Source: a virus
DNA length: 20,048 bases
Virus record (IMG/VR): IMGVR_UViG_3300048919_000426
Span: 1 to 20,048 of that record
Strand: one strand, 5' to 3'
Part shown: piece by piece, positions 14-18,976 of the stretch
Position numbering within the stretch: the stretch's first letter is position 1
Layout: each line of letters starts with the position of its first letter
Position numbers and translations under genes: made by a program
Notes under the pieces: model-generated
The model's input: the letters and a program-made list of their open reading frames with translations, nothing else
Database searches by the model: none
Told to the model about the DNA's origin: nothing

Positions 14-1636
14 TTGCCAGCCGCGAAGCCGAACCGGGTTGAGCGGCGCGTCGCGGACGCCAATACGGGCAAGGTCGCTGGCGCCTTGCTGGACTACAGT
101 CATAAAATGGATGCGATCGTGGCGAAACGGGCTGATGACCGCGCGGTAATCCTGGACGCCGTTGCGCGTGGCGCCGCGTTGGCCGGGGCGATGTCGCAGC
201 CGGATAGCGGGGCGGTGGCAGCGGCGGTTTTCGGTGAGGCGCCGGTGGTTGGCGCGGGGGCGAACAGTGTGCCCCGGTCCGCCAACGCCAACGCCGATGT
301 CCATGCTGGCGCCGATGCCGAAGCTGGTGCCGGCGTCGATGTCGGCGAGCCCAATCTCTCGCTGGCCGACATGCTCGACCTTCCCGCCGAGGACCTTGCG
401 GAACGGCTGAAGCTCTGGCCTTCGCTCGGCAATCTCTGGGCCTTCACCGGCCGCGACGAACAGCAGCCGCCGCCGGGAGACTGGCGCACATGGCTGATCA
501 TGGGCGGGCGCGGCTCGGGCAAGACGCGGGCAGGGGCCGAATGGGTGCATGCGATTGCGAGCGCCGGTCGCGTGTCGGATCTGCGCATCGCGCTGATCGC
601 CGAAACGCTGGGCGACGCCCGCGAGGTGATGATCGACGGCATCTCGGGCATCATGCGGATCGCCCGCAGCCGTCGTCCCGAATTCGAGATCTCCCGCCGC
701 CGGCTAGTCTGGCCGAACGGCGCGGTGGCGCAGATATTCTCGTCGGAAGATCCCGAAAGCCTGCGCGGACCGCAGTTTCATTTCGCCTGGAGCGACGAGC
801 TCGCCAAATGGAAGCATGGGCAGGAGACCTGGGACATGCTGCAGTTCGGCCTGAGATTGGGCAACGCACCGCGCCAGCTGGTAACGACGACGCCGCGCCC
901 GGTGCCGCTGTTGAAGGCGCTGATGAATGATCCCGGCACGCTGACGACGCGCATCAGCACCCGCGCCAATGCCCAAAACCTGGCGCCCGGCTTCATCGAC
1001 GCGCTCGCCAACCGCTATGGCGGCACGCGGCTGGGGCGGCAGGAGCTGGATGGCGAGCTGATCGAGGATCGCGAGGATGCGCTCTGGCGCCGCGAGATGT
1101 TCGATGCCGTGACGATACGCTTTTCCGGCGATCTCCGCCGCATCGTCGTGGCGGTCGATCCGCCGGCGGCGGCGGGGCCGAATTCTTGCTGCGGCATCGT
1201 TGTGGCCGGGCTGGATGCGAGCGGCCGTGCCGTGGTGTTGGCCGATTGCTCGGTGGAGGGCGCAAGCCCGGCGGGATGGGCGGGTGCGGTGGCGAAAGCC
1301 TATCGCCGCTTCGCCGCCGACCGCGTGGTGGCCGAGATCAACCAGGGCGGCGATATGGTGACCGCGATGCTGAAAAGCATCGACGAGACGCTGCCGGTAA
1401 CGACGGTGCGCGCCACGCGCGGCAAATTTCTGCGCGCCGAACCGGTCGCGGCACTCTACGAGCAGGGGCGCGTCGCCCATGCCGGGCGCTTCATGGCGCT
1501 GGAAGATCAGATGTGTGATTTCGGCCCGGATGGATTATCCCAGGGCCGCTCGCCCGACCGACTGGATGCTCTGGTCTGGGCGCTGACGGCATTGATGCTC
1601 GAAGGCGGCGGGGAGCCGCGTGTGCGGGGTATCTGA
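14..1636 (+). CDS. Large terminase (DNA-packaging motor), GTA g2-like, with unusual N-terminal extension
   Basis: ATPase/nuclease that pumps DNA into the capsid. Walker A GGRGSGKT is at residues 164-171. A Walker B-like FAWSDE is at 257-262. A C-terminal RNase H-like nuclease is marked by D382 (VAVDPP), E441 (VAEINQGG) and D518 (RLDALVWAL). From about residue 120 the protein matches GTA/HK97-type TerL. Residues 1-115 are unusual: a helical, charged stretch (1-55), then Ala/Gly/Val-rich low complexity with ANANAD and AGADAEAGAG runs, absent from the usual roughly 430-aa family members. The assigned start is TTG at 14, but the frame is open to the window edge, so the gene may begin further left. 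Internal ATGs at 107, 191 and 371 are alternatives; 371 would still leave the ATPase intact. The next GTA gene, the portal, begins 2.8 kb downstream. Family call is sure; the start is not. Confidence 0.93.
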   Translation: MPAAKPNRVERRVADANTGKVAGALLDYSHKMDAIVAKRADDRAVILDAVARGAALAGAMSQPDSGAVAAAVFGEAPVVGAGANSVPRSANANADVHAGADAEAGAGVDVGEPNLSLADMLDLPAEDLAERLKLWPSLGNLWAFTGRDEQQPPPGDWRTWLIMGGRGSGKTRAGAEWVHAIASAGRVSDLRIALIAETLGDAREVMIDGISGIMRIARSRRPEFEISRRRLVWPNGAVAQIFSSEDPESLRGPQFHFAWSDELAKWKHGQETWDMLQFGLRLGNAPRQLVTTTPRPVPLLKALMNDPGTLTTRISTRANAQNLAPGFIDALANRYGGTRLGRQELDGELIEDREDALWRREMFDAVTIRFSGDLRRIVVAVDPPAAAGPNSCCGIVVAGLDASGRAVVLADCSVEGASPAGWAGAVAKAYRRFAADRVVAEINQGGDMVTAMLKSIDETLPVTTVRATRGKFLRAEPVAALYEQGRVAHAGRFMALEDQMCDFGPDGLSQGRSPDRLDALVWALTALMLEGGGEPRVRGI

Positions 1637-1711
1637 AGCCTTGAGGGTGCAATCGCCACTCTGGGAGAGGCAGGCCGTGAGGGGGTGTTTGACACCCCCA
1701 GGCACTTGCGC

Positions 1712-1843
1712 TTAACGCTGCTGTTGCTGCGTCGCCGGACGTTGCGCCTGTGGCACGGGGCGAACCTGACGCCACTCGCTTTCGAGTTGGTCCGTCACGT
1801 GCTGGGGAATGATCGGCTGATTGCTGTGAACGGGCTGCGTCAT
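1712..1843 (-). CDS. Possible 43-aa Gln/Pro-rich small protein
   Basis: I do not recognise this protein. It reads MTQPVHSNQPIIPQHV at the N-terminus and ends in PATQQQQR. It is hydrophilic, with no membrane segment. Support comes from a perfect GGAGG ribosome-binding site on the minus strand (complement of 1849-1853), five bases before the ATG, and from a composition more protein-like than the overlapping plus-strand frame. The frame extends upstream to 1894 only through a TTG with no ribosome-binding site, so I prefer 1843. It faces the terminase gene (convergent) and diverges from the endolysin gene, with which it may share the AT-rich control region at 1895-1992. It could be a chance frame. 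Confidence 0.4.
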   Translation of the reverse strand: MTQPVHSNQPIIPQHVTDQLESEWRQVRPVPQAQRPATQQQQR

Positions 1844-1956: not shown

Positions 1957-1992
1957 ACATCAAGTCCTCATCAGCTTTTAGGATTACACGCT

Positions 1993-2679
1993 ATGGTTAT
2001 CCACATCGACAGGCGGTTTTTCTTCGACACGGTGCGCGAGGCGCTGTTCAAGGGCACGCTTTCGGCCCCGCAGGTCGAGGGCATGACGGCGATTCTGGAT
2101 TTCTGGGAAGAGCGCATGGCCGATGCCGACCCGCGCTGGCTGGCCTATATCCTGGCGACCGCCTTTCACGAGACGGCCTACACCATGCAGCCCGTGCGCG
2201 AGACGCTGGCGACGAGCGATGCGCGCGCCGTCGAGATCCTGGAAAATGCATTCGCGAGCGGCAAGCTCTCCTGGGTGAAGACGCCCTATTGGCGGCCCGA
2301 CAATGACGGCAAGAGCTGGCTCGGCCGCGGCCTGGTGCAGCTCACCCACAAGCGCAATTACGAGGCGATGAGCGCGCTCACGGGCATCGATCTCGTCGCC
2401 GAGCCCGACCGGGCGATGGAGATGGGGCCGGCGGTATCGATCCTGATCGAGGGCATGGTTCAGGGCAGCTTCTCCAACCACAAGCTCGCCGACCACCTGA
2501 ACGAAACGAATGACGACTGGATCAACGCCCGCCGCATCGTCAACGGCACCGACCGCGCCGAGAAACTGGCCGGCTACGGCAAGACCTTCCTCGCCGCCAT
2601 CCGGCCCGAGCGCCCCTCCGGTTGGTTCGCCCGGTTGAAGCAATGGGTCTGCCGTGGTATCGCCCGGCTTATGGGCTGA
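1993..2679 (+). CDS. Endolysin, GH19 chitinase-like (lysozyme superfamily)
   Basis: Probable peptidoglycan-cleaving endolysin of 228 aa that would release particles by lysing the cell. The GH19 fingerprint is clear: AFHETAY with putative catalytic acid E60, and GRGLVQLTHKRNY at 111-123, matching the substrate-cleft motif of GH19 chitinases and phage lysins. The C-terminus (WFARLKQWVCRGIARLMG) is basic and amphipathic and might contact membranes or polyanions. No signal peptide is present, so export would need a holin; a holin-like gene lies at 18767. ATG 1993 is preceded by AGGA at 1980-1983. It lies between terminase and portal, whereas RcGTA lysis genes lie outside its structural cluster. 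Lytic activity is inferred from the family. Confidence 0.85.
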   Translation: MVIHIDRRFFFDTVREALFKGTLSAPQVEGMTAILDFWEERMADADPRWLAYILATAFHETAYTMQPVRETLATSDARAVEILENAFASGKLSWVKTPYWRPDNDGKSWLGRGLVQLTHKRNYEAMSALTGIDLVAEPDRAMEMGPAVSILIEGMVQGSFSNHKLADHLNETNDDWINARRIVNGTDRAEKLAGYGKTFLAAIRPERPSGWFARLKQWVCRGIARLMG

Positions 2680-2707: not shown

Positions 2708-3016
2708 GTGATCCGCCACATCGTCTTCTTCACGGCGCCGATCGAAAACCTGGAAAAGGTGCGCGCCGGCTTGTCGATCCTGACGGCGATCCCGCACGCA
2801 AGGCTGCTGGAGATCGGCACCAACGTGAAGACCGACCAGCTCGGCACAGAGGTCGACCTGATCGTCTACGGCGAGTTCGACAACGAGGCGGCACTCGCCG
2901 CCTACAAGGCGCACCCGAACTACCAGCTCTCCATCGACCTCGTCCGCCCGATCCGCGAAATGCGGATGGCGGCGGATTACCAGACTGATTTGGCGGTGAA
3001 ACAGCCGCTGGGGTGA
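2708..3016 (+). CDS. Dabb-domain (stress-responsive alpha/beta barrel) protein
   Basis: This small 102-aa protein opens with (V)IRHIVFFTA, the typical first strand of Dabb-family ferredoxin-like dimers (PF07876). It continues with a helix, EVDLIVYGEFDNEAALAAYKAHPNY (the conserved strand, then helix, then HP motif) and a final strand-like segment. Dabb proteins form dimeric barrels; roles range from stress-linked to polyketide cyclase-like, and nothing here identifies a substrate. The frame is open from 2654 inside the endolysin gene, but GTG 2708 has a CAGGAG ribosome-binding site (2697-2702) and places the conserved strand at the N-terminus. It starts 28 bases after the endolysin stop and is probably cotranscribed with it. 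It has no known GTA role and looks like a passenger. Confidence 0.8.
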   Translation: MIRHIVFFTAPIENLEKVRAGLSILTAIPHARLLEIGTNVKTDQLGTEVDLIVYGEFDNEAALAAYKAHPNYQLSIDLVRPIREMRMAADYQTDLAVKQPLG

Positions 3017-3186: not shown

Positions 3187-3510
3187 ATGAAGCCGATCAC
3201 CTACAAGGGCTATCAGGCCTCGGTCGAGTATCAGGACGGTACGCTGTTCATCAAGATACTGCATATCGACGATCTCCTGCTGGCGGAGTGCGAGGATTCC
3301 AGATTGGTGGAAGCGACCGCACGGGCTTTGATCGACGATTATATCCAGACCTGCATCGATGAAGGCCGCGATCCCGAGAAGCCCTTCAAGGGCTCGCTTA
3401 ACATCCGCATGGACCCCACGCTGCACCGCCGCGCGGCCATGGCCGCTGCCGATGAAGACAAGTCGCTGAATGCGTGGATTTGCGAGGCGATCGCGGAGAA
3501 GGTCGATTGA
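3187..3510 (+). CDS. HicB-like antitoxin, orphan
   Basis: This 107-aa protein has the two parts of HicB antitoxins. An N-terminal partial RNase H-like fold begins MKPITYKGYQASVEYQDG and ends in IDDYIQTCIDEGRDPEKPF. A C-terminal ribbon-helix-helix segment follows (GSLNIRMDPTLHRRAAMAAADEDKSLNAW in abbreviated form: strand 70-76, helices to 107). HicB normally neutralises HicA, a roughly 60-aa mRNA interferase, and represses its own promoter. No HicA-like frame is found on either side, so this is either an orphan regulator or an antitoxin left after toxin loss. ATG 3187 has an AGGAAAG ribosome-binding site (3176-3182). It has its own candidate promoter. Confidence 0.8.
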   Translation: MKPITYKGYQASVEYQDGTLFIKILHIDDLLLAECEDSRLVEATARALIDDYIQTCIDEGRDPEKPFKGSLNIRMDPTLHRRAAMAAADEDKSLNAWICEAIAEKVD

Positions 3511-3545
3511 TGGTAGGATACGGACGTCAGACCCGGAGATTGCAC

Positions 3546-3740
3546 ATGCAAGAGGTGAAGCTGCAGATCACCGATCTCGACGGGTTCTTCGCCGATGCGA
3601 TCGAGGCCGCCCGCCGCATCGACGGCGGTGACTTTAGCGTACAGCAGAGCGTTGTCGCCTTCGAAAGCATGGAGACGTTGCTGAGGACGCTCCCCGTTCG
3701 CCACTGGCGCCCGATCCCGGCACTTAAGGATCGCAGCTGA
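3546..3740 (+). pseudogene. Truncated HVO_A0114/TumA-like regulator (N-terminal fragment)
   Basis: A 64-aa frame reads MQEVKLQITDLDGFFADAIE then AARRIDGGDF and FESMETLLRTLP near residues 39-50. The pattern resembles the N-terminal part of HVO_A0114-family winged-helix regulators, which include TumA antitoxins. In those proteins this part is followed by a helix-turn-helix; here the frame stops after PALKDRS, and the other frames downstream do not restore one. ATG 3546 lies 35 bases after the HicB-like stop, so the two are probably cotranscribed. The neighbouring toxin (TumE, DUF6516) is not present. Family assignment is from memory of the motif; it could instead be a complete small protein of unknown function. 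Confidence 0.45.
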
Positions 3741-3857: not shown

Positions 3858-4268
3858 TTGAAGATCATGGTAATCACGGCGGCGCTGCTGCTTTCGGGCG
3901 CGGGGTTGGCTCAGGCGGCTTCCTGCGAGGCGAATTTCAAGGTGTCGGGCGTGCCGATGATGACGGCGCTGAGCTACAAGACGTGGCAGGAGTTTCCGAA
4001 GGCGAAATCCGCCGCCGTCTTGAAGAACCTCGCCCAGGCGGTCGCCGCCGAGGGCTTTTCCGGCATCAAGGTCAACAAGGAACTCTCCTCGGTCGACGCC
4101 TACCAGGAAACGACAGGCAGCGGCCGCATCCAGACGCTGCGCGTCGTCGCCCGCCAGAAAGGCGCCGGTGTGCGCGTCGATGCCGTCTTCGATATCCAGG
4201 CCGGCCAGCTGACCACCAAGGAAGTGGTGCGCACCGGGCTTTGCAACATCATCGGCTCGGCGCTGTGA
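3858..4268 (+). CDS. Small secreted (periplasmic) protein of unknown function
   Basis: The 136-aa product begins MKIMVITAALLLSGAGLAQA, a Sec signal peptide with likely cleavage after AQA (residue 20). The mature part has two cysteines, one right after the signal peptide (ASCEANF) and one near the C-terminus (GLCNIIG), which could form a disulfide. I do not recognise the domain. I chose TTG 3858 because AGGAG (3847-3851) lies six bases ahead and it supplies the signal peptide's lysine; ATG 3867 is the alternative. The frame is open back to 3768 without a plausible start. The 117 bases before it (3741-3857) hold no gene. It is not a GTA structural family; its role in this locus is unknown. Confidence 0.7.
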   Translation: MKIMVITAALLLSGAGLAQAASCEANFKVSGVPMMTALSYKTWQEFPKAKSAAVLKNLAQAVAAEGFSGIKVNKELSSVDAYQETTGSGRIQTLRVVARQKGAGVRVDAVFDIQAGQLTTKEVVRTGLCNIIGSAL

Positions 4269-4432: not shown

Positions 4433-5608
4433 ATGAACCTTCGATCTCTCCTGCCGTGGGGCTCCCCGGCGGGCCGCACATCCGTGCCCGCAAGCCAATC
4501 CACCCCTGAACGAAAGGCAGCCTCCGGCTTCCTGTCGCTGACATCGGAGGGCAGGGCGAGCTGGACCGGCCGCTCCTACGCGGCCTTGTCGCGCGAGGGC
4601 TTCATGCGCAATCCGGTCGCGCATCGCTGTGTGAGAATGGTCTCGGAGGCAGCTGCCTCGGTGCCGCTGCTGCTTTACGAGCAGGACCGCGAACGGCCGG
4701 ATCACCCGCTGCTTCATCTTCTGCGCCAGCCGAACGCCCGCATGAGCGGCCCCGATTTCTTCGAGGCGCTTTATGGCCATCTGCTGCTGTCGGGCAACGC
4801 CTATGTTGAGCCGGTCGAGATCGGCGGCGCGCTGCGCGAACTGCATCTGCTGAGGCCCGATCGTATCGGCATCGTCGAGGGCCGCGACGGCTGGCCGGAA
4901 GCCTATGACTACCGCGCCGGCGGCCTCGTCCGTCGCTTTGCCGTCGAGACCGACGGGCTCGGTCTGCTGCACCTGAAACTCTTCCACCCGCTCGACGATC
5001 ATCTCGGCTTTCCGCCGCTGGCGGCAGCCCAGGTGGCGCTCGATCTCTCCAATGCGGCGGCCACCTGGAACAAGGCGCTGCTTGATAACTCCGCGCGCCC
5101 CTCCGGCGCGCTCGTCTACCAGCCCAAGGAGGGCGGCAATCTCTCGCCGGACCAGTATGAGCGGCTGAAGCAGGAGCTCGACGAGGGCTATTCCGGCCCG
5201 ATGCGCGCCGGCCGGCCGCTGCTGCTCGAAGGCGGGCTCGACTGGAAATCCATGGGCCTCTCGCCCAAGGACATGGACTTCGTCGAAGCCCGCAACGGCG
5301 CCGCCCGCGACATCGCGCTCGCCTTCGGTGTGCCCCCCATGCTCCTCGGCATCCCTGGCGACAACACCTACGCCAACTACCAGGAAGCCAACCGCGCCTT
5401 TTACAGGTTGACGGTGCTGCCCATGCTGACCCGCACGCTGGCGGCGCTGGCGAGTTGGGCGGCCGCAGGCTATGGCGACGGGCTGCGGCTGGAGCCGGAT
5501 CTCGACAAGGTCGCGGGGCTTAGCGCCGAACGCGGCGAGCTCTGGAAAAGGGTGGGCGAGGCGGCGTTTCTGACGGATGAGGAGAAGCGGCAGGCGGTGG
5601 GGTATTGA
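4433..5608 (+). CDS. HK97-family portal protein, GTA g3-like
   Basis: Forms the dodecameric ring at one capsid vertex through which terminase drives DNA and to which the tail attaches. The 391-aa length is normal for the family. Recognisable segments are VAHRCVRMVSEAAASVPLLLY near residues 62-82 and AFGVPPMLLG at 297-306, followed by IPGDNTYANYQEANRAFYR, the hallmark of HK97-type portals. ATG 4433 is preceded by an AGGAAA ribosome-binding site. In RcGTA this gene directly follows terminase; here six other possible genes intervene. An unrelated CopG-like gene follows before the g3.5-position gene. Confidence 0.95.
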   Translation: MNLRSLLPWGSPAGRTSVPASQSTPERKAASGFLSLTSEGRASWTGRSYAALSREGFMRNPVAHRCVRMVSEAAASVPLLLYEQDRERPDHPLLHLLRQPNARMSGPDFFEALYGHLLLSGNAYVEPVEIGGALRELHLLRPDRIGIVEGRDGWPEAYDYRAGGLVRRFAVETDGLGLLHLKLFHPLDDHLGFPPLAAAQVALDLSNAAATWNKALLDNSARPSGALVYQPKEGGNLSPDQYERLKQELDEGYSGPMRAGRPLLLEGGLDWKSMGLSPKDMDFVEARNGAARDIALAFGVPPMLLGIPGDNTYANYQEANRAFYRLTVLPMLTRTLAALASWAAAGYGDGLRLEPDLDKVAGLSAERGELWKRVGEAAFLTDEEKRQAVGY

Positions 5609-5675: not shown

Positions 5676-5960
5676 ATGGCGGCGTCCGTTCTCTCCGATC
5701 CGATCGCGCTACGCATTCCTGAAGACATTTTGACGGACATCGACACCATCGCTGGCGCTACTGAGCGGAGCCGCAATTGGGTGATCGTCCGCGCGCTGAA
5801 ATACTACCTCATGCAAGAGGGAAATGACGTCCTGCAGATTCTGAAGGGCGAGGAAGCGATAAGGCGAGGCGACGTCATGGATATGGACGATTTTCTGGCT
5901 GAGCTTGAGGCAGAGGATGAATTGGACGCTACCGCGAGTGGCGAACACCAAGAGCGGTGA
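5676..5960 (+). CDS. Ribbon-helix-helix (CopG/ParD-like) antitoxin-type regulator, orphan
   Basis: The 94-aa protein has an N-terminal RHH DNA-binding unit: strand DPIALRIPEDI, helix LTDIDTIAGATE, turn RSRN and helix WVIVRALKYYLMQ. An acidic tail follows (MDMDDFLAELEAEDELDA), of the kind that in ParD/RelB-type antitoxins wraps around a toxin. No ParE/RelE-like frame is found downstream; the next 215 bases (5961-6175) hold only a small hairpin at 6060-6084. I chose ATG 5676 because GAGGA (5665-5669) precedes it; the frame is open to 5640. It separates the portal from the g3.5-position gene and probably has its own promoter. The DNA-binding fold is fairly sure; antitoxin function is inferred. 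Confidence 0.75.
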   Translation: MAASVLSDPIALRIPEDILTDIDTIAGATERSRNWVIVRALKYYLMQEGNDVLQILKGEEAIRRGDVMDMDDFLAELEAEDELDATASGEHQER

Positions 5961-6175: not shown

Positions 6176-6493
6176 ATGGCCGATTTCTCCAACGATGCCG
6201 GGCTCTGGGCGACCAGGGCGCTGGGCGCGTCGGCGGGTGCCGCCGTGTCGCTGATCTATCTCTTGCCGAAAAGCCGTCGCGAGGCGGCGAGCCGGTTTTT
6301 CACCGGGCTTGCCTGCGGCATCGTTTTTGGCGGCCCGACTGGGATCTGGATCGCCGAGCGGCTGGATCTGGTCGGTCAGCTCTCTGCTGTCGAAGTGCTG
6401 CTGTCGGGTTCGGCCGCCTCTAGCCTCTGCGCCTGGTGGGGGCTCGGCATTCTCCAGCGCATCGCCGGCCGATACGGCGCCCGTAACCGGTAA
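6176..6493 (+). CDS. Small membrane protein at the GTA g3.5 position
   Basis: This 105-aa protein has three hydrophobic segments: about residues 10-30 (WATRALGASAGAAVSLIYLL), about 41-58 (FFTGLACGIVFGG) and about 73-95 (VLLSGSAASSLCAWWGLGIL). Charged, Arg-rich loops lie between them and at the C-terminus. It resembles DUF6107-type small proteins found between portal and prohead protease in alphaproteobacterial GTA-like clusters, the position called g3.5 in RcGTA. Its function is not established. The start codon follows a loosely placed AAGG. The prohead protease begins 38 bases downstream, so it is likely part of the head operon. Confidence 0.75.
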   Translation: MADFSNDAGLWATRALGASAGAAVSLIYLLPKSRREAASRFFTGLACGIVFGGPTGIWIAERLDLVGQLSAVEVLLSGSAASSLCAWWGLGILQRIAGRYGARNR

Positions 6494-6531: not shown

Positions 6532-7140
6532 ATGACCGCAAGCCGCGCGCTGGCGCGATCTCCCACGCGCTTGTCCACCCGGGCCATTCCCGGCGCGGAT
6601 ACGCGCAAGTTCGCCAATCTGGAGCTGCGAGGCCTCAGCCGCGACGGCACATTTTCCGGCTATGCCAGCGTCTTCGGCGAGGTCGATCTTGGCAAGGACG
6701 CGATCGAGCGCGGGGCCTTTCTGCGCTCGCTGAAGACACGTGGTGCGGCGGGTGTACGCATGCTCTTCCAGCATGATCCGGCCGAGCCGATCGGCGCTTG
6801 GAAGACGATCCGCGAGGATAGCCGCGGGCTCTATGTCGAGGGCGTGCTCGCTGATGGCGTCAGCCGCGCCCGCGAAGTGCACCAGCTTTTGAAGAACGGC
6901 GCGCTCGATGGCCTGTCGATCGGCTTTCGCACCGTCCGCGCCAAGACCGACGCCAAGTCTGGCGTGCGCCGCATCCTGGAGGCCGACCTCTGGGAGATCT
7001 CGGTGGTGACCTTCCCCATGCTGCCGTCCGCCCGCGTGCAGAACATCAAGAATGCGCGGTGGTTCCGCGACAAGGAGACCGAGCTCGTCCGCGCCATGCG
7101 CCGGGCGGCCCGGATGATGCTGCAAGACACCTTCAAGTAG
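6532..7140 (+). CDS. HK97-type prohead protease, GTA g4-like
   Basis: Serine protease (peptidase U35 family) that trims the capsid protein's N-terminal scaffold domain during head maturation. The 202-aa protein shows the family signature: GYASVFGEVD near the N-terminus, FQHDPAEPIGAW with catalytic H81, LDGLSIGFRTV with catalytic S129, and the EADLWEISVVTFPML strand-turn motif. I chose ATG 6532 over ATG 6526 because GAGGAG (6519-6524) is seven bases from the former and only one base from the latter. It lies 25 bases before the capsid gene, as expected for protease and substrate. Confidence 0.95.
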   Translation: MTASRALARSPTRLSTRAIPGADTRKFANLELRGLSRDGTFSGYASVFGEVDLGKDAIERGAFLRSLKTRGAAGVRMLFQHDPAEPIGAWKTIREDSRGLYVEGVLADGVSRAREVHQLLKNGALDGLSIGFRTVRAKTDAKSGVRRILEADLWEISVVTFPMLPSARVQNIKNARWFRDKETELVRAMRRAARMMLQDTFK

Positions 7141-7165: not shown

Positions 7166-8422
7166 ATGACCAACATGCAGATTGCCGAGAAGACCGCCCC
7201 CGAGATCAAGGCCGCGCCGGAAATGACTGCCGCCTTCGACGAGTTCATGGAAGCCTTCGAGGCCTTCAAGGAAACCAACGACGCCAGGCTCGGCGAGATC
7301 GAGCAGAAGCTGACGTCGGATGTCGTCACCCGCGATAAGATGGATCGCATCAGCCGCGCGATGGACGAGCAGAAGAAGGTGCTCGACCAGCTGGCGCTGA
7401 AAAGGGCCCGCCCGCCGCTCGGCCGCAGCGCATCTGTGGGCGCCGAGACTACCGAGCACAAGCAGGCCTTCGAGCAGTATATCCGCCGTGGCGACGAAGC
7501 CGGCCTGCGCGAGATCGAGGCCAAGGCCATGTCTGCAGGCTCCGGCGCCGATGGCGGCTATCTCGTGCCCGACGAGACCGACAGCGCCATCGGCCGCCGC
7601 CTCTCCGTCGTGTCGCCGATCCGCTCGATCGCGACCGTTCGCCAGGTCTCGGGTGCTGTGCTGAAGAAGCCCTTCGCGATCTCGGGCATGGCGTCGGGCT
7701 GGGTGGCCGAAACGGCGGCGCGGCCGCAGACCAATGGCGCCCAGCTTGCCGAGCTCTCTTTCCCGACCATGGAACTCTACGCCATGCCGGCCGCCACCCA
7801 GGCGCTGCTCGACGATGCCGCCGTCGACATCGAGGCCTGGATTTCGAGCGAGGTCGACACCGTCTTCGCAGAGCAGGAGGGCGCCGCCTTCGTCGCCGGC
7901 GACGGCATCAACAAGCCGAAGGGCCTGCTGGCCTATACCGTGGTCGCCGACAGCGCCTGGAGCTGGGGCAACATCGGCTACATCGCCACCGGTGCCGCCG
8001 GCGGCTTCAAGGCGACCGGCGCTTCCGACACGCTGATCGACACGATCTATTCGCTGAAGGCGGGCCACCGCCAGAACGCCAACTTCGTGATGAACCGCAA
8101 GACCCAGGCCGAGGTGCGCAAGCTGAAGGACGCCGAAGGCCGCTACCTCTGGCAGCCGCCGGCAACGGCAGGCGAAGCCGCCTCGCTCGTCGGCTTCCCC
8201 GTCGTCGAGGCTGAGGACATGCCCGATATCGCCGCCAACGCGATGGCCATCGCCTTCGGGGATTTCCGCGCGGGCTATCTGGTGGTCGACCGCACGGGCG
8301 TGCGGGTGCTGCGCGACCCGTATACGGCCAAGCCGTATGTGTTGTTTTACACGACCAAGCGGGTCGGTGGCGGGGTGCAGAACTTCGAGGCGATCAAGCT
8401 GGTGAAGTTTGCGGTGAGTTGA
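7166..8422 (+). CDS. HK97-fold major capsid protein, GTA g5-like
   Basis: Shell protein of the particle head, 418 aa. Residues about 20-85 form the charged, coiled-coil delta (scaffolding) domain that the upstream protease should remove. The HK97 core follows, with GGYLVPDETDSAIGRR near 131-146, the P-domain helix and the AGDGINKPKGLL loop that is very characteristic of this family, and FGDFRAGYLVVDR near the C-terminus. An AAGGA ribosome-binding site lies at 7150-7154. The following spacer is enlarged by a RIME-type repeat. Confidence 0.96.
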   Translation: MTNMQIAEKTAPEIKAAPEMTAAFDEFMEAFEAFKETNDARLGEIEQKLTSDVVTRDKMDRISRAMDEQKKVLDQLALKRARPPLGRSASVGAETTEHKQAFEQYIRRGDEAGLREIEAKAMSAGSGADGGYLVPDETDSAIGRRLSVVSPIRSIATVRQVSGAVLKKPFAISGMASGWVAETAARPQTNGAQLAELSFPTMELYAMPAATQALLDDAAVDIEAWISSEVDTVFAEQEGAAFVAGDGINKPKGLLAYTVVADSAWSWGNIGYIATGAAGGFKATGASDTLIDTIYSLKAGHRQNANFVMNRKTQAEVRKLKDAEGRYLWQPPATAGEAASLVGFPVVEAEDMPDIAANAMAIAFGDFRAGYLVVDRTGVRVLRDPYTAKPYVLFYTTKRVGGGVQNFEAIKLVKFAVS

Positions 8423-11230: not shown

Positions 11231-11315
11231 GGCGTGGATTTCGGCGAAGAGAAGGGATCGAAGCGGTCGTAGCATCTTCGCCGCCAGCTTCAAAGTGACA
11301 AGTCGATGACATCGC

Positions 11316-11340
11316 GGGCGTCCCTCTGGGGCGCCCTTTT
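11316..11340 (+). terminator. Rho-independent terminator-like hairpin just before g9
   Basis: GGGCGTCCC (11316-11324), loop TCT, GGGGCGCCC (11328-11336) form a 9-bp stem with one G-T pair, followed by TTTT (11337-11340). It reads in the plus direction and lies only 18 bases before the major tail ATG, between the divergent MFS and g9 starts. It could stop plus-strand read-through from the head genes, or act as an attenuator or 5'-UTR structure for the tail operon. Confidence 0.5.
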
Positions 11341-11358: not shown

Positions 11359-11766
11359 ATGGTGGCGCAGAAGGGCAAGGATCTGCTGTTGAGGGTTTTC
11401 AACGGCACGGATTATGAAACGGTGGCGGGGCTGCGCTCGAAGCGGCTGGCCTTCAATGCCGAGACGGTGGATGTGACCGATGCCGAAAGCGCCGGGCGTT
11501 GGCGCGAGCTTTTGGGCGGCGCCGGCGTGCAGCGGGCCTCGGTCTCGGGCTCAGGCATCTTCAAGGACGCGGCCTCCGACCAGCTGGTGCGCAACGCCTT
11601 CTTCAATGCCTCGATCCTGAGCTGGCAGATCGTCGTGCCGGATTTCGGCAGCGTCACCGGCCCGTTCCAGGCAAGCGCGCTTGAATATTCCGGCCAGTAT
11701 AATGGCGAGGTGATGTTCGAGCTGGCACTGGAATCGGCCGGCGCGATCACCTTCGAGGTGCTGTGA
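11359..11766 (+). CDS. Major tail tube protein (TP901-1 type), GTA g9-like
   Basis: The 135-aa protein builds the tail tube. It begins MVAQKGKDLLLRVFNGTDYE and has VDVTDAESAGRWRELLGGAGVQRASVSGSGIF in the middle, a typical tube-protein motif (shown abbreviated, about residues 36-67). A C-terminal beta segment, EYSGQYNGEVMFELALESAGAITFE, follows. The ribosome-binding site is GGAAGGGA (11343-11350). This is the first gene after the MFS insertion, so a new promoter is needed unless transcription reads through from the head genes; I could not identify a convincing one. It is coupled to the next gene through TGATG. Confidence 0.92.
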   Translation: MVAQKGKDLLLRVFNGTDYETVAGLRSKRLAFNAETVDVTDAESAGRWRELLGGAGVQRASVSGSGIFKDAASDQLVRNAFFNASILSWQIVVPDFGSVTGPFQASALEYSGQYNGEVMFELALESAGAITFEVL

Positions 11767-12140
11767 TGTCGGGCGGGCGGCAAGGGTCCGCCATCGGGCG
11801 AAGGGCCAATCGCAGGCGCGGTGAGATCGAGGCCGAGATCGATGGCGAGCGGCGGGTGTTGTGCCTGACGCTGGGCGCGCTGGCCGAGCTCGAGACGGCC
11901 TTTTCGGTCGATAGCCTGAATGGGCTGGCTGAGCGTTTCGCCGGCGGTCGGCTGAAGGCGGCGGATATGATCCGCATCATCGGCGCCGGCCTGCGCGGCG
12001 GCGGCAATCTCTATTCCGACGAGGATGTGGCGGAGGCCGATATCGAGGGCGGCATCGGTGGTTATGCCGCGATTGTCGGCGATCTGCTGACCGCAACGTT
12101 TTCGGGGGATGGCGCGGACGCCTCCGCGCGCCCCCTCTAG
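11766..12140 (+). CDS. GTA gp10-family protein (tail assembly)
   Basis: The 124-aa protein matches the GTA-gp10 family (GTA_gp10-like): a basic N-terminus (SGGRQGSAIGRRANRRRGE), then IEAEIDGERRVLCLTLGALAELE, the conserved strand-helix core, and LKAADMIRIIGAGLRGGGN. It probably acts in tail tube assembly with the next small protein, in the place of the lambda G/GT chaperones. I chose ATG 11766, which overlaps the upstream stop; GTG 11763 is in frame and only one codon earlier. It is separated from g10.1 by 11 bases. Confidence 0.88.
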   Translation: MSGGRQGSAIGRRANRRRGEIEAEIDGERRVLCLTLGALAELETAFSVDSLNGLAERFAGGRLKAADMIRIIGAGLRGGGNLYSDEDVAEADIEGGIGGYAAIVGDLLTATFSGDGADASARPL

Positions 12141-12151: not shown

Positions 12152-12397
12152 ATGAAGACGACGGACAATGCGGGGCCCACGCCATTCCCCTGGGCGCGGG
12201 GCCTGCATGTCGGTCTCTGCCTGCTGCGGCTTCCCCCGCAATCCTTCTGGGCGATGACGCCGGTGGAGTTTCACGCCGCAGCCGGTGGCCTCTCGCCGCC
12301 GCGACCCGCTGTCTCCCGCGCCGATCTCGACAGGCTGATGGCCCGCTTTCCGGACAGCCGGGCAACATCCGAAACGAGGAACGACCATGACCGATGA
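12152..12397 (+). CDS. Small tail assembly chaperone, GTA g10.1-like
   Basis: The 81-aa protein has the signature of the rcc01693-type/TAC family of GTA clusters: PFPWARGLHVGLCLLRLPP, then SFWAMTPVEFHAAAGGL, and DLDRLMARFPD near residues 59-69. Members of this family sit between gp10 and the tape measure gene and are thought to hold the tape measure protein during tail assembly. Its end overlaps the tape measure start by 11 bases. Confidence 0.85.
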   Translation: MKTTDNAGPTPFPWARGLHVGLCLLRLPPQSFWAMTPVEFHAAAGGLSPPRPAVSRADLDRLMARFPDSRATSETRNDHDR

Positions 12398-12939: not shown

Positions 12940-13578
12940 ATGCCAGGTTTCCACGAGGTGCGCTTTCCGCTCCGCCTGTCGCTGTCGACGAGCGGCGGGC
13001 CGGTCCGGCGTACCGATATCGTCAATCTCTCCAATGGCCGCGAAAGCCGCAACAGCCGCTGGCGCGATGCGCGCCGCAGCTATGATGCCGGCTCCGGCCT
13101 GCGCTCGGTGGCGGATCTCTATGAGGTGCTGGAGTTCTTCGAGGCCCGTAGCGGCGAGCTCTATGGCTTCCGCTTCCGCGATCCGATCGACTGGACCTCG
13201 ACACGACCGGGAGCCGAGATCGGACCGGGCGACCAGCCGATCGGGATCGGCGACGGCGTGGCCGTCGCGTTCCCGCTCGCCAAGACCTATGGCGATGCCG
13301 GGGCCAGCAGCACGCGGCGGATCGCCAAGCCCGTGGAGGGCTCGGTCGTCGTCGCGGTGGATGGCGTGCCGCAGCCGTCGTCCGCCTTCGTGTGCGACCC
13401 CACGACCGGCATCGTCACCTTCGCGGCGGATGCCGTTCCGCCGGAGGGCGCGTCGGTGACTTCAGGGTTCCTGTTCGACGTGCCGGTGCGCTTTGCGACC
13501 GGGCGCATCGACGTCAACCTCTCGGCCTTCAATGCCGGGCGCATTCCCACCATTCCGCTGATGGAGATCATGCCATGA
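12940..13578 (+). CDS. Distal tail protein (DUF2460), GTA g12-like
   Basis: The 212-aa protein has the DUF2460 pattern. It opens MPGFHEVRFPLRLSLSTSGG, has RTDIVNLSNGRESRNSRW (about 26-43), DLYEVLEFFEARSGELYGFRFRDP (about 61-84), the central GDGVAVAFPLAKTYG strand and the FDVPVRFATGRIDVNLSAF C-terminus. It forms the hexameric ring that links tail tube and baseplate hub. I chose ATG 12940 because GAGG (12931-12934) is five bases away; ATG 12937 is also possible, while the open frame to 12772 overlaps g11. It overlaps the next gene by four bases (ATGA). Confidence 0.92.
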   Translation: MPGFHEVRFPLRLSLSTSGGPVRRTDIVNLSNGRESRNSRWRDARRSYDAGSGLRSVADLYEVLEFFEARSGELYGFRFRDPIDWTSTRPGAEIGPGDQPIGIGDGVAVAFPLAKTYGDAGASSTRRIAKPVEGSVVVAVDGVPQPSSAFVCDPTTGIVTFAADAVPPEGASVTSGFLFDVPVRFATGRIDVNLSAFNAGRIPTIPLMEIMP

Positions 13579-14465
13579 GGCATATTCCCCACGCGCTCGC
13601 CGCGCATCTCGCCGGCGACGCCACGACGCTCTGCCACGCCTGGCGGGTGACGCGCCGCGATGGCGTCGTGCTTGGGTTTACCGAACACGATCACGACCTG
13701 ACCTTCGCGGGCACCGCCTTCCTGGCCGCGAGCGGCTTTTCGGCCAGTGCGGCGGAAGAGGAGGCGGGCTTGCCGGCCGCCACCAGCGATGTCGCCGGCG
13801 GCTTCTCCAGCGCGGCGATCACCGAAGAGGATCTCAAGCGCGGCCGCTATGACGGCGCCCGCGTCGAGGTCCATCTCGTCAACTGGGCGGACCCCGGCCA
13901 GCACATGCTCCTGAAGGTGCAGGAGATCGGCGATGTCACGCGCGATGCCGGCCAGTTCCAGGCGGAGCTGCGCAGCTTCGCCAGCCGCCTCGGCGAACCA
14001 CAGGGTCGCGTCTATGGCCGGCGCTGCGACGCCACGCTTGGCGATCAAAGATGCGGTGTCGATCTATCGGCACCCGCGATGCGCGCCGAAGGCGTGGTGG
14101 TCTCGGTGGCGGATGCCAGCCGGCTTATGCTCTCGGATGTCCGCGCCGTGCCGGACGGCTTCTTCCGTTTCGGCGTGCTCGGTTTTCTCGATGGCGACAA
14201 TCAGGGCCAGCGGCTGGAGATCGAGACGCATGCGGTGAAGGACGGTCTGCTGGAGGTGACCCTCTGGCTGCCGCTCGAGGCCACGCCACGGGCGGGCGAT
14301 CGCGTCGTGCTGACGGCGGGCTGCGACAAGGCCTTTTCCACCTGCCGAACGAAGTTCGCCAACCACCTGAATTTTCGCGGTTTCCCGCACATCCCCGGCA
14401 CCGATTTCGCCTACACCTATGCCGATGGCGAGACCCTTCACGATGGGAGCGCGCTGTTCAAATGA
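13575..14465 (+). CDS. Baseplate hub with probable Fe-S cluster (DUF2163), GTA g13-like
   Basis: The 296-aa protein is DUF2163 plus the C-terminal phage BR0599-like region. It begins MRHIPHALAAHLAGDATTLC, with TRRDGVVLGFTEHDHDLTF (about 26-44) highly typical. Four cysteines, C151 and C160 (RRCDATLGDQRC) and C250 and C257 (AGCDKAFSTC), have spacings C-x8-C and C-x6-C, the same as the [4Fe-4S] ligands I recall for phage lambda tail-tip protein gpL. This supports a hub with a metal cluster, as reported for RcGTA. A fifth cysteine (C20) is likely not a ligand. Both gene ends overlap neighbours (ATGA on the left, four bases on the right), so g12-g14 are translationally coupled. Confidence 0.92.
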   Translation: MRHIPHALAAHLAGDATTLCHAWRVTRRDGVVLGFTEHDHDLTFAGTAFLAASGFSASAAEEEAGLPAATSDVAGGFSSAAITEEDLKRGRYDGARVEVHLVNWADPGQHMLLKVQEIGDVTRDAGQFQAELRSFASRLGEPQGRVYGRRCDATLGDQRCGVDLSAPAMRAEGVVVSVADASRLMLSDVRAVPDGFFRFGVLGFLDGDNQGQRLEIETHAVKDGLLEVTLWLPLEATPRAGDRVVLTAGCDKAFSTCRTKFANHLNFRGFPHIPGTDFAYTYADGETLHDGSALFK

Positions 14466-14896
14466 CCCACATTTCAACGCAAGTGCTGCGGCTGGCCGAA
14501 GGCTGGATCGGCACGCCCTACAGGCATCAGGCCTCGCTCAAGGGCGTCGGCTGCGATTGTCTCGGGCTGATCCGGGGCATCTGGCGCGAGCTTTACGGGC
14601 AGGAGCCGGAGCGCCCGCCGCCCTATGCGCCCGATTGGGCCGAACGCGGCGGCGGGGATCGGCTGATGGAAGCCGCACTCCGGCATTTCGGCCCGCCGCT
14701 GCCGCTTGTCGAGGCAAGACCCGGCGACGTGCTTCTGTTTCGCTGGCGCCCGCAGCTTGCCGCCAAGCATGCCGGTATCCTCTCCGGCGAGCGGCAGTTC
14801 ATCCATGCCTACGAGCAGGCGGCGGTTGTCACATCGCCGCTGGTGCCGAGCTGGCGCCGGCGCATTTCGGGCGTTTTTCGTTTTCCGGAGAGATAG
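14462..14896 (+). CDS. NlpC/P60 peptidoglycan peptidase of the tail, GTA g14-like
   Basis: The 144-aa cysteine peptidase is expected to cut peptide bonds in the recipient's cell wall during DNA entry. Catalytic residues are visible: C33 in GCDCLGLIRG, H103 in AKHAGIL and H115 in FIHAYEQ as third polar residue. The opening WIGTPYRHQASLKGVGCDC is the classic NlpC/P60 start. A second cysteine (C31) precedes the nucleophile, as in many GTA and phage homologues. The gene starts within the g13 stop (ATGA) and abuts g15 with no gap. Confidence 0.93.
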   Translation: MTHISTQVLRLAEGWIGTPYRHQASLKGVGCDCLGLIRGIWRELYGQEPERPPPYAPDWAERGGGDRLMEAALRHFGPPLPLVEARPGDVLLFRWRPQLAAKHAGILSGERQFIHAYEQAAVVTSPLVPSWRRRISGVFRFPER

Positions 14897-17800
14897 ATGG
14901 CAACGCTCCTCTTCCAAGCCGCCGGCGCGGCACTCGGCGGCGTCTTCGGACCTGTCGGCGCCATCATCGGCCGCGCGGCCGGCGCGCTTGCTGGAAGTGT
15001 CGTCGATCGCGCGCTGATCAACGGCCGCTCCACCGTGCGCGGCGCGCATCTGTCGAGCGCCCGCATTCCCGGCGCCGACGAGGGCACGGCGATCAACCGC
15101 GTCTATGGCAGCGTCCGCGTCGGCGGCACGCTGATCTGGGCGACGCGCTTCGAGGAGGAGGTGACCAGCGAGCGGCAGGGCGGCAAGGCCACCGGCGGCA
15201 CCCGCGTCGAGAGCTTCCGCTACTTCGCCAATCTCGCGGTTGGGCTGACGGAAGGGCCGATCGGGCATGTCAGGCGCGTCTGGGCCGATGGCAAGGAACT
15301 GGATCTGACGAGGATCGAGATGCGCGTCTATCGCGGCGACGACGCGCAGCTGCCTGATCCGCTGATCGAGGCCAAGCAGGGGGCGGGCAACGCGCCCGCC
15401 TATCGCGGCCTAGCCTATGTCGTCTTCGAACGCCTGCCGCTGGATGTCTACGGCAACCGCATTCCGCTGCTGCAGTTCGAGGTGGTGAGACCGGTCGGTG
15501 AGCTGGAAAATGAGATCAGGGCCGTCTGCATCATCCCCGGCGCGACCGAGCATGGCTATCAGCTGGCCCAGGTCTCGGAGAGCCTCGGTGCCGGCAGCGC
15601 CCGCATTCTCAACCGCAACAGCCTGCGCGGCACGAGCGACTGGGATATCTCAATCGACGAGCTGATGGCGCTTTGCCCCAATCTCGAGCGCGTGGCGCTC
15701 GTCGTCTCGTGGTTCGGCACCGATCTGCGCGCCGGCCAATGCCGCGTGGTGCCCGGCGTCGAGGTGGCGAGCCGCGCGGAGGAAAGCACGCCGTGGTCGG
15801 TGTCCGGCATCACGCGCGGCGCTGCCCATCTCGTCAGCCGCAGCAATGGTGGCCCGGCCTATGGCGGCACGCCCGATGATGCCAGCGTGCTGTCGGCGAT
15901 CACCGATCTCAGGAGCCGTGGCCTTGAGGTCTATCTCTATCCCTTCGTGATGATGGACATTCCTGCCGATACCGCGCTTGCCGATCCCTATGGCGGCGCG
16001 CGACAGGCGTCCTATCCCTGGCGAGGCCGCATCACCTGCGATCCCGCGCCGGGCAGGCCTGCTAGCGCCGATCGTACGGCTGTCGCGCGGGGGCAGGTGC
16101 AGGCCTTCGCGGGCAATGCGCAGGCGGGCGATTTCACGATTGCGAACGGCCATGTGACCTATCCCGGCGGCGAGGAGAGCTACCGCCGTTTCGTCCTGCA
16201 CTATGCGCAACTGGCGCGTCTTGCGCGCGGGGTCGATGGCTTCCTGATCGGATCCGAACTGCGCGGGCTGACGCAGCTGCGCGACGGAGGCGATGCCTTT
16301 CCCTTCGTCGAGGCGCTGGTGCGGCTGGCGGGCGACGTCAAGGCGCTGCTGCCGGCGGTGAAGATCACCTATGGCGCCGATTGGAGCGAGTATTTCGGCT
16401 ATCACCCGCCTGACGGCAGCGGCGACGTCTATTTCCATCTCGACCCGCTCTGGGCCTCGCCCGATATCGATGCAGTGGGTATCGACAATTACATGCCGCT
16501 CGCCGACTGGCGCGACGACGATCTCGCCAGCGCCAACCCCGATGGCTTCCGGCTTGCCGATGATCGAAATGCGTTGATGGTGGCGATAAACTCCGGCGAG
16601 GGTTTCGACTGGTACTACGCAGACGACGATGCCCGCAAAGCCCGGCAGCACAGCCCGATTACCGATGGTCTGGCCGGCAAGCCCTGGGTCTTCCGCTACA
16701 AGGATATCGCCGCCTGGTGGGCCAATCCGCACTACGAGCGCATCGGCGGCGCCGAGCGCGCGTCGCCCACGGCATGGATCCCGTCGGGCAAGCCGGTCTG
16801 GTTCACCGAGCTTGGCTGCGGCGCCGTCGATAAGGGCGCCAACCAGCCCAATGTCTTCGCCGATCCGAAGTCGGTGGAAAGCGGGGCGCCGTATTTCTCC
16901 ACCGGCATGCGCTCGGACAGCACGCAGCGCCGCTTTCTCGAGGCGCACCATCTCTGGTGGGCCGGCGATGGTGCGCCCGCCGGCATGGTCGATCCCTCGC
17001 ATCTTTTCGTCTGGTGCTGGGATGCGCGGCCGTTCCCGGCCTTTCCGCTGGCAACGGATATCTGGTCCGATGGCGGCAATTGGCGCACCGGGCACTGGCT
17101 GAACGGAAGGCTTGGCGCCGGCACCCTGGCCGATATCGTGGCGGCGGTGCTGCGCGACCACGGCTTTTCGGATTTCGACGTCTCCGAGGTGAGCGGCGAC
17201 CTGATCGGTTACGTCAAGGGCGAGCTCGGTTCGGCTCGGGACCTGATCGAGCCGCTGCTGCAGGCATTCCAGATCGATGCCTTCGAGGATGCCGGCCTTC
17301 TGCGCTTCCGCTCGCGCACGCGCGCCAGCTTGCCGGCAATACGGATCGAAACGCTCGTCGACAGCGAGAATGAACCGCTCTGGCAGGAGACGCGCGGCCA
17401 CGACAGCGATTTCGCCGCCGAGGCGGTGATGACCTTCTACAATCCCGATCTCGACTACGAGCAGGCCAGCGCCCGCTCGCACCGCGCCGAACAGGCGACG
17501 AGCCGGCTGATCAAGCAGGATCTGCCGGCCGTGCTTGCCGAAGAAACGGCGCTCGATGCGGCCGAGGCGCTGCTGCGCGACGTCAGAATTGCCCGCCGCT
17601 CGCTGCGCTTCTCGCTGGCGCCGGGCCGGCTGGACGTGCAGCCGGGCGATGTCGTCTCGCTCGCCGATGGTCCTGATGGCCGATTCCTGGTCTCGCGCAT
17701 TGAGGATGGCGATGCACGCCGCATCGAGGCGCGGGCCTTTGCGCCATCCTCGGGCGGCGCTCCGCCTGCGGTGACCGACGGTCGCAATGGCGGCGGCACC

Positions 17801-18742
17801 GCCTCGAACCTGTTCAAGCCGCTGGTCCATCTCATGGATCTGCCGCGCTTCGACGGCGAGGCGGCGACGAGCTTCGCGCGGGCCGCGGTCTTCGCCAAGC
17901 CGTGGCGCACCGTCGGCCTGTCGTCATCGGCGACGACGGAGGGTTATCGGGGCAGGGCGGTGCTCGATCGTCCGGCAACGATGGGGACTCTTGCATCCGC
18001 ATTGGCACCGGGTATTGCCGGCCGCTTCGACTGGTCTCAGGCGCTGATCGTCGATCTCGCTTACGGCGAACTGTCCTCGGCGGCCGAGATAGCGGTGCTG
18101 AACGGCGCCAATCGGCTGGCCGTGCGCTCAGTGGGTGGCGTCTGGGAAATCCTGTCCTTCCTGCAGGCCGAAGAGATCGCGGCCGGGCGATGGCGGCTTG
18201 GCGGGTTGCTGCGCGGGCTTGCCGGCACCGAGGATGCGATGACCTCGGGCAGTCTCGAGGGTGCGGCGATCGTGTTGCTCGACGAGGCGGTCAAACCGCT
18301 CGGTCTGCGCGGCGACGAGGCCGGCCTGTCGCTCAACTGGATCGCCGAGGCGGCCGGTTCGCTTGCCATGGCGGGGCCGTTCGTGTTCGCGGGCGGCCTG
18401 CGCGCAGAGACGCCGCTCGCCCCGGTGCATCTGCGCTGCCGGCGCACGGATGCTGGCGATGCCGTGATCTCCTGGACCCGGCGCGGACGCGACAATGCCG
18501 ACGGCTGGACCGGCGCCGACATTCCGCTCGATGAACCTTTCGAACGCTACCGGGTCGAGGTGCTTGGCGGCGCCGACGTTGTAATCCGGGCCGTGGAGGT
18601 CGCGACGCCGGCATGGACCTATCCGCTCGCCGACGAAGTGCTCGATTTCGGCGGGCGGCAGACCAGCCTTGCGGTGACGATCCGTCAGCTTGGCGAGCGC
18701 GTGCCGCTGGGATTGCCGGCGCGGGCGATCTTTCAGACGTGA
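14897..18742 (+). CDS. Tail-tip 'megatron' with GTA TIM-barrel-like domain, GTA g15-like
   Basis: At 1281 aa this is the large tail-tip protein that contacts the recipient. Residues 1-45 are Gly/Ala-rich and hydrophobic (GGVFGPVGAIIGRAAGALAG). Residues to about 400 hold the hub-like part with RVYGSVRVGGTLIWATRF. About 428-690 is the GTA TIM-barrel-like domain (PF13547 type): GFLIGSELRGLTQL with E454, GIDNYMPLADWRDDD and PVWFTELGCGAVDKG with E638. The phage-tail_3-like domain follows (about 780-960; EPLWQETRGHDSDFAAEAV, then RRSLRFSLAPGRLDVQPGD). A beta-rich C-terminus resembles receptor-binding modules. The two glutamates are placed like acid/base and nucleophile of clan A glycosidases, but activity is inferred. 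SD GGAG at 14887-14890. Confidence 0.93.
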   Translation: MATLLFQAAGAALGGVFGPVGAIIGRAAGALAGSVVDRALINGRSTVRGAHLSSARIPGADEGTAINRVYGSVRVGGTLIWATRFEEEVTSERQGGKATGGTRVESFRYFANLAVGLTEGPIGHVRRVWADGKELDLTRIEMRVYRGDDAQLPDPLIEAKQGAGNAPAYRGLAYVVFERLPLDVYGNRIPLLQFEVVRPVGELENEIRAVCIIPGATEHGYQLAQVSESLGAGSARILNRNSLRGTSDWDISIDELMALCPNLERVALVVSWFGTDLRAGQCRVVPGVEVASRAEESTPWSVSGITRGAAHLVSRSNGGPAYGGTPDDASVLSAITDLRSRGLEVYLYPFVMMDIPADTALADPYGGARQASYPWRGRITCDPAPGRPASADRTAVARGQVQAFAGNAQAGDFTIANGHVTYPGGEESYRRFVLHYAQLARLARGVDGFLIGSELRGLTQLRDGGDAFPFVEALVRLAGDVKALLPAVKITYGADWSEYFGYHPPDGSGDVYFHLDPLWASPDIDAVGIDNYMPLADWRDDDLASANPDGFRLADDRNALMVAINSGEGFDWYYADDDARKARQHSPITDGLAGKPWVFRYKDIAAWWANPHYERIGGAERASPTAWIPSGKPVWFTELGCGAVDKGANQPNVFADPKSVESGAPYFSTGMRSDSTQRRFLEAHHLWWAGDGAPAGMVDPSHLFVWCWDARPFPAFPLATDIWSDGGNWRTGHWLNGRLGAGTLADIVAAVLRDHGFSDFDVSEVSGDLIGYVKGELGSARDLIEPLLQAFQIDAFEDAGLLRFRSRTRASLPAIRIETLVDSENEPLWQETRGHDSDFAAEAVMTFYNPDLDYEQASARSHRAEQATSRLIKQDLPAVLAEETALDAAEALLRDVRIARRSLRFSLAPGRLDVQPGDVVSLADGPDGRFLVSRIEDGDARRIEARAFAPSSGGAPPAVTDGRNGGGTASNLFKPLVHLMDLPRFDGEAATSFARAAVFAKPWRTVGLSSSATTEGYRGRAVLDRPATMGTLASALAPGIAGRFDWSQALIVDLAYGELSSAAEIAVLNGANRLAVRSVGGVWEILSFLQAEEIAAGRWRLGGLLRGLAGTEDAMTSGSLEGAAIVLLDEAVKPLGLRGDEAGLSLNWIAEAAGSLAMAGPFVFAGGLRAETPLAPVHLRCRRTDAGDAVISWTRRGRDNADGWTGADIPLDEPFERYRVEVLGGADVVIRAVEVATPAWTYPLADEVLDFGGRQTSLAVTIRQLGERVPLGLPARAIFQT

Positions 18743-18766
18743 CATTTCAACCGAAGGAGAAAGACG

Positions 18767-18976
18767 ATGCCTGACTTGAAAAACTGGTACAGCTCGAAGA
18801 CCATCTGGGGCGCGGTCGTTGCGATCCTCGCTTCGGCTTTGCACTTTACGGGTGTGGATATCGCATCCGGCGATCGCGGCCAGATCGTCGATGCGATCGT
18901 CAATATCGTGGGTGCGCTGGGCGGGTTGCTCGCGGTCTATGGCAGGGTGACGGCGAAGTCGGCGATCAAGCCTTGA
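18767..18976 (+). CDS. Two-helix holin-like membrane protein
   Basis: The 69-aa protein has two hydrophobic segments, about residues 13-31 (IWGAVVAILASALHFTGVD) and about 42-60 (VDAIVNIVGALGGLLAVYG). They are joined by a short charged loop, with a basic tail (RVTAKSAIKP). Size, topology and the N-terminal MPDLKNWYSSKTIWGA fit a widespread alphaproteobacterial phage family annotated as putative holin. It would open the membrane for the signal-less endolysin at 1993. AAGGAGA (18754-18760) precedes ATG 18767. It follows g15 by 24 bases and is the last gene of the cluster. Holin function is inferred. Confidence 0.72.
   Translation: MPDLKNWYSSKTIWGAVVAILASALHFTGVDIASGDRGQIVDAIVNIVGALGGLLAVYGRVTAKSAIKP

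Follow-up and report, generated by a model that had tools for sequence, protein, structure and literature searches.

Clusters resembling RcGTA, the type I gene transfer agents (GTAs), have been found in 435 out of 730 Rhizobiales genomes (PMC6821227). In the clusters of Agrobacterium and Rhizobium sp. IRBG74, a gene called 'lysozyme' lies between terL and the portal gene (PMC11409702). Split gafA genes were noted earlier in Rhizobiales (PMC6363796), and in CcGTA of Caulobacter crescentus, gafY and gafZ are separate, antitermination by GafZ has been shown, and the cluster contains a terminator element (PMC11150451). The TspA tailspike is reported to be absent outside Rhodobacterales (PMC13420450), and Rhodogtaviriformidae has so far been limited to Rhodobacterales GTAs (PMC9662315).

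The window analyzed here is an entire IMG/VR virus record of 20,048 bases. Since the analysis covered its own genome only as far as this record, the flanks were read in the genomes of relatives, and the gafYZ-like genes, g1, and the copy number are known from those relatives alone. Gene calls and Pfam searches place 16 head-tail genes (g2 to g15, with g3.5 and g10.1) in the window in RcGTA order, well above the minimum of six RcGTA homologs, including g2 and g5, that a published criterion asks for in one neighborhood (PMC9662315). Fifteen of the 16 are assigned above Pfam cut-offs. The exception, g11, has no Pfam match, and its 181 aa match only the C-terminal ends of phage tape-measure profiles of ~1000 aa. 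Motifs read directly from the translations are intact in the large terminase, TerL (Walker A GGRGSGKT, Walker B FHFAWSDE), in the prohead protease (QHDP and LSIGF), and in the NlpC/P60 peptidase (GCDCLG, KHAG, and IHAYE). All 16 frames are open in the window, that of g2 running off the left edge, so that its listed position 2 is not a called start.

The initial annotation had described 16 genes from terminase to tail-tip protein in RcGTA order, with intact catalytic residues and no frameshift, and each of these statements holds, g11 by its tape-measure profile match. Its description of the cluster as complete goes too far: g1 lies outside, just left of the edge (L005:3516-4085; the g1 match in L083 stops about where the window starts), and seven genes foreign to RcGTA, one of them antisense, interrupt the order. 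The end of the cluster, given there as 18976, has to be moved, as g15 stops at 18742.

Table 1. Features of the 20,048-base window, in order of position
Feature	Position	Strand	Evidence or remark
g2, large terminase	2..1636	+	Terminase_6N 2.6e-34, Terminase_6C 2.4e-24; frame open at left edge
GH19 gene of phage endolysin type, g2-g3 interval	1993..2679	+	PHROG 181 endolysin 8.9e-33
Dabb-domain passenger	2708..3016	+	PF07876 4e-17
HicB-like antitoxin, passenger	3187..3510	+	PF05534 2.1e-19; phrog_9151
Small ORF, passenger	3510..3740	+	phrog_11214 1.3e-4
Secreted-protein-like ORF, lineage-specific passenger	3858..4268	+	among relatives, present only in L002, L003, L004, L083
g3, portal	4433..5608	+	PF04860 4.7e-88
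RHH antitoxin	5676..5960	+	PF01402
g3.5, DUF6107, small hydrophobic	6176..6493	+	PF19602 5.8e-50
g4, prohead protease (S78)	6532..7140	+	PF04586 4e-34
g5, major capsid protein (HK97)	7166..8422	+	PF05065 7.6e-89; Rcc01687 (solved RcGTA chain 6tb9) 4e-104
Palindromic interspersed repeat (RIME-like), between g5 and g6	8490..8617		blastn
g6, head-tail connector	8683..9252	+	PF05135 2.5e-10
g7, head closure	9252..9587	+	PF05521 5.6e-27
g8, tail terminator	9584..9994	+	PF11367 1.2e-27
MFS exporter, between g8 and g9	10016..11293	-	PF07690 2.2e-22
Terminator-like hairpin + TTTT, 22 nt upstream of g9	11316..11336	+	terminator scan
g9, tail tube	11359..11766	+	PF06199 9.2e-46
g10, TAC_11	11766..12140	+	PF11836 6.4e-29; in-frame GTG at 11763
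g10.1, TAC_6	12152..12397	+	PF09550 2e-19
g11, short tape measure, 181 aa	12387..12932	+	C-terminal ends of phage tape-measure profiles
g12, distal tail protein (DUF2460)	12940..13578	+	PF09343 7.2e-78
g13, hub	13575..14465	+	PF09931 2.1e-57, PF09356 1.8e-27
g14, NlpC/P60 peptidase	14462..14896	+	PF00877 9e-8
g15, megatron tail-tip	14897..18742	+	GTA_TIM 2.5e-128, Phage-tail_3 1.2e-36, Rcc01698_C 5.6e-29; solved RcGTA chains 6tba/6teh 3e-252
Small conserved right-flank gene, PepSY-like by eye	19173..19421	+	no Pfam match
PhoP-type response regulator, right neighbor	19475..20048	+	PF00072 8.6e-25, PF00486; cut by window end

We compared the site by tblastn of the window proteins against 80 genomic loci. 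Gene order is constant among them, and the response regulator adjoins g15 wherever the loci extend so far; the order and right neighbor seen in the window recur in Shinella, Martelella, Hoeflea, Mesorhizobium, Aminobacter, and Paenochrobactrum. GTA_TIM is found in 45 out of 45 related genomes, all of them chosen for carrying the capsid gene, and occurs once per genome, the exceptions being G037 and G042, where the match is split, and G038, which has a further, partial copy. On the left of g1, locus L175 carries HD-GYP, a CxxCxxCC protein, a penicillin-binding protein, DUF2336, and peptidoglycan-binding proteins; further left come an overlapping pair of ORFs, one with a DnaA-type HTH (GafY-like) and one with DUF6456 (GafZ-like), and then MucR. 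Between this pair and the cluster the genomes of relatives hold housekeeping genes only and no integrase, and the 3.5 kb upstream in L005 likewise contain no integrase, only housekeeping genes. DUF6456 is single copy in 45/45 genomes, mostly on the contig of the cluster at a distance of about 3-25 kb. Its Bac_DnaA_C partner was confirmed in the two genomes checked, and in G001, the closest genome, neither gene is broken. By its position and partner gene in relatives, the DUF6456 ORF is probably a GafZ equivalent. Neither the window nor the flanks in relatives contain integrase, repressor, or replication genes, as the initial annotation had said of the window; it had also named an integrase to the left and strain-specific presence as observations that would speak against a GTA, and the comparison gives the opposite picture in both respects. 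Order, right neighbor, and copy number in relatives thus describe a cluster that is endogenized and vertically inherited at a stable chromosomal site.

The genes at this site are under selection. Measured by the Nei-Gojobori method against a close relative (L083, dS about 0.2), dN/dS lies between 0.03 and 0.23 for all 16 head-tail genes; against more distant relatives it is also well under 1, but there dS is near saturation. All head-tail genes are therefore under purifying selection, which argues against decay; dN/dS across related strains was among the checks that had been proposed. Some relatives have nevertheless lost parts of the cluster. Three loci (L008, L059, and L064) have g9/g10-g14 or more deleted while keeping GH19, and frameshifts, possibly sequencing errors, occur in the draft genomes of others: in g15 (L010, L077), in g2 (L020), and in g3.5 (G001, G006, and G040, with a truncated match in G007; some near residue 40-50). 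These deletions and frameshifts indicate that some lineages can do without the cluster. The side-chain carbon content is below that of phage homologs in 14/14 and 12/14 genes for the two phages compared, with differing G+C a partial confounder, in line with the cheap amino-acid composition that is among the features described for GTAs in PMC7360931.

In the TerL tree, the GTAs of Rhizobiales and Rhodobacterales lie on one side of a branch with support 100/98.6 and all phages on the other, and the window is placed inside Rhizobium. The capsid tree has two separate GTA clades, that of Rhizobiales, with the window in it (99/99), and that of Rhodobacterales (98/100). The proposed phylogeny of g2 and g5 therefore supports GTA descent in part: TerL falls in the GTA clade and the capsid groups with Rhizobiales GTAs rather than with temperate phages, but the union of the two orders is not recovered from the capsid. 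The AU test counts against GTA monophyly for the capsid (p = 0.04), in a tree that leaves the deeper order without resolution and in which long phage branches intrude. By its nearest relatives the host is a member of Rhizobiaceae, and the window consequently stands outside Rhodogtaviriformidae as presently delimited. We rejected two candidate close phages, MW091529 (L162) and MW462191 (L183), with capsids 65-68% identical: they are GTA loci with a regulator of the same kind at right, and they fall within the Rhizobiales GTA clade. Public records thus contain GTA clusters deposited as phages. Two IMG/VR capsid scans also returned capsid relatives among the matches listed.

We consider it very probable that the window is a type I (RcGTA-like) GTA head-tail cluster of a Rhizobium species, vertically inherited at a fixed locus and kept by purifying selection. 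Gene set, order, site, selection, phylogeny, and the regulator pair in relatives are matters of observation. The structural genes are of phage type and the database entry is a viral one, as one would expect of a decaying prophage remnant; but the same site is occupied across families, the flanks hold no integrase, dN/dS is low, and TerL belongs to the GTA clade, and we reject that reading as very improbable. The initial annotation had likewise favored a conserved GTA in a Rhizobiaceae host over a decaying prophage. Even less credit can be given to the idea that the window edges have truncated a working temperate phage: the record does stop at 20 kb, but it stops in a response regulator, housekeeping genes lie on both sides in relatives, replication, repressor, and integrase genes are missing from the window and those flanks, and the tape measure has only 181 aa.

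A more serious alternative is that the structural genes are kept by descent in a lineage that has stopped making transducing particles, either through a recent loss of regulation or of an unlinked part, or with selection acting on another use. The deletions and frameshifts of several relatives would fit such a loss, as would the passengers and repeats that have entered the cluster. Against it stand the 16 out of 16 genes intact here, with the dN/dS range given above against L083, as well as the intact GafY/GafZ-like genes of G001 and the presence of DUF6456 in every related genome; we regard it as unlikely. A GTA cluster maintained by its host thus remains the preferred reading.

The seven inserted genes differ in their distribution. 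In many loci of Rhizobium, Agrobacterium, and Ciceribacter the Dabb gene likewise lies between g2 and g3, and the HicB-like gene is common to L002, L004, and L083. The secreted-protein-like ORF has a dN/dS of 0.06-0.13. In L002 (8155-8807), L084, and L004 a gene for a ParE-like toxin comes after the RHH antitoxin gene; this toxin gene has no match in the window, leaving the antitoxin orphaned here. Many Rhizobiaceae loci have the antisense MFS exporter at the identical site and in the same orientation; among the loci compared, it is absent from the cluster in Shinella, Martelella, and others. Copies of the RIME-like repeat occur elsewhere in many related loci, and at one and the same place blastn matches it in both orientations; L002 and L003, the two closest relatives, have contigs that end about at the g5-g6 repeat.

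In the region as a whole, 8 terminators are counted, no more than the 9.9 in shuffled sequences, so that a single hairpin is weak evidence alone; a sigma-70 promoter scan (three sites, 2.5 expected) was uninformative. We also counted across relatives, which are related sequences and not independent: the last 60 nt before g9 hold a hairpin with a T-rich tail in 26 out of 124 distinct sequences, those before g15 in 18/103, and those before g6 in 18/135, compared with 1% of random 60-base windows. The interspersed repeat may account for those at g6. For g9 this enrichment was used instead of pair counts, the rows of the alignment being out of register.

The hairpins before g9 in relatives fit antitermination by GafZ, and we infer the following mode of expression by analogy with Caulobacter. 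GafY, with its DnaA-type HTH and encoded upstream in relatives, would start transcription before g1, as in CcGTA, and GafZ (DUF6456) would carry RNA polymerase through the internal hairpins and past the inserted genes. TerL would then package random host DNA into HK97-type heads, which would be joined to a short siphovirus-like tail of a length suggested by the short tape measure. The producing cell would finally lyse, most likely through the GH19 endolysin within the cluster and perhaps with g3.5 as holin.

RcGTA itself has unlinked lysis genes, a GTA holin (PF11351) and a GH108-type endolysin. The relatives depart from this RcGTA-proper arrangement: the holin family exceeds the cut-off in one out of 45 genomes, and GH108 (PF05838) occurs in nine out of 45. 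The near absence of that holin family makes GH19 the best endolysin candidate. The GH19 protein is up to 50% identical to phage GH19 proteins, several of them annotated as endolysins, has relatives in 37/45 genomes, and shows a dN/dS of 0.10-0.16 against the closest of these. Among the same 45 genomes, no GH19 relative is found in Martelella, Hoeflea, Mesorhizobium, and others that have the cluster, so GH19 is not a universal GTA part. Co-loss does not speak for a dependency between GH19 and the GTA, as the gene stays in L008, L059, and L064 despite their tail-gene deletions. The g3.5 family (DUF6107) is present in 41/45 genomes and has up to three hydrophobic stretches, which makes it perhaps a holin. 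Broken g3.5 genes in a few genomes and the absences of GH19 both count against a universal role in lysis. The GH19 slot in the cluster is not itself new, having already been published (PMC11409702).

These features can be joined in a more speculative proposal, which we hold to be possible but rather doubtful. The Rhizobiaceae GTA would be self-contained for release, a captured GH19 and a DUF6107 holin having replaced the unlinked lysis genes of RcGTA, and the terminators before g9 and g15 would silence the tail module unless GafZ-loaded RNA polymerase reads through, which would also let the antisense exporter persist. A possible unlinked tail-fiber gene is the DUF2793 gene, found in 45/45 genomes (single copy in 44) and lying directly after g15 in phage ctuI7215.

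Using profile HMMs built from Rhizobiaceae loci, we found two phage genomes with a nearly full gene set: Desulfofustis phage LS06-2018-MD02 and phage ctuI7215 (L191, OP947159, 3034-23776; L192, MW202777, 25159-42637) each have 15 of the 16 window genes in order and lack only g3.5. Neither g3.5 nor GH19 has a match in the two. Rhizobium phage 16-3 (first 50 kb) and Mesorhizobium phage vB_MseS-P1, named in 2024 as the likely closest genuine phage relatives in an account that leaves Desulfofustis unmentioned (PMC11409702), have six genes each. That account credits the most homologs to the M. nodulans prophages LC1-LC5 (PMC11409702); our comparison covered the four phages given here. With MW091529 and MW462191 set aside, the best phage matches of g2, g3, g4, and g5 by identity, or nearly so, are MD02 and ctuI7215, whose TerL and capsid are 47-51% identical to those of the window. 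They differ from it as phage genomes with a DNA polymerase and a tape measure of ~700 aa. Both trees make them sisters, with weak support for their closeness to the GTA clade. The host call for MD02 drew on few CRISPR spacer matches, one of them from a Rhodobacteraceae array, and the word GTA is not used in its description (PMC10370329). We propose that they may be the closest free relatives so far known of the ancestor of type I GTAs; carrying almost the entire RcGTA head-tail set, they would allow direct comparison of the transition from phage to GTA.

A record filed as a virus thus appears to be a gene transfer cluster that its hosts, plant-associated bacteria, have kept under selection. 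The main interest lies in its acquired genes, including a cell-wall-cutting enzyme that may release particles. The analysis offers testable candidates for the way in which particles of Rhizobiales GTAs are released where the RcGTA holin family is lacking, and for how one transcript crosses inserted genes.

In comparison with known systems, the cluster is like RcGTA in having all head-tail genes in order and a short tape measure, probably with GafA-type regulation, and the RcGTA capsid and megatron chains are the top PDB matches of g5 and g15. It differs from RcGTA in that GafA is split, in relatives, into GafY-like and GafZ-like ORFs near the cluster, in that GH19 lies inside the cluster and relatives almost all lack the RcGTA-type holin family, and in its seven passenger genes, one antisense. 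The RcGTA-like clusters of Agrobacterium and Rhizobium (PMC11409702, PMC6821227) are of the same kind, to which the window adds the Dabb, HicB, and RHH genes, lineage ORFs, the antisense MFS exporter, and the interspersed repeat. With CcGTA (PMC11150451) it shares separate gafY and gafZ and a terminator element within the cluster; the CcGTA terminator follows the first gene whereas the hairpin here precedes g9, and GafZ would act in Rhizobium by analogy. The cluster is thus an ordinary member of the RcGTA-like kind, with unusual passengers and good evidence of selection, for which we infer particle production.
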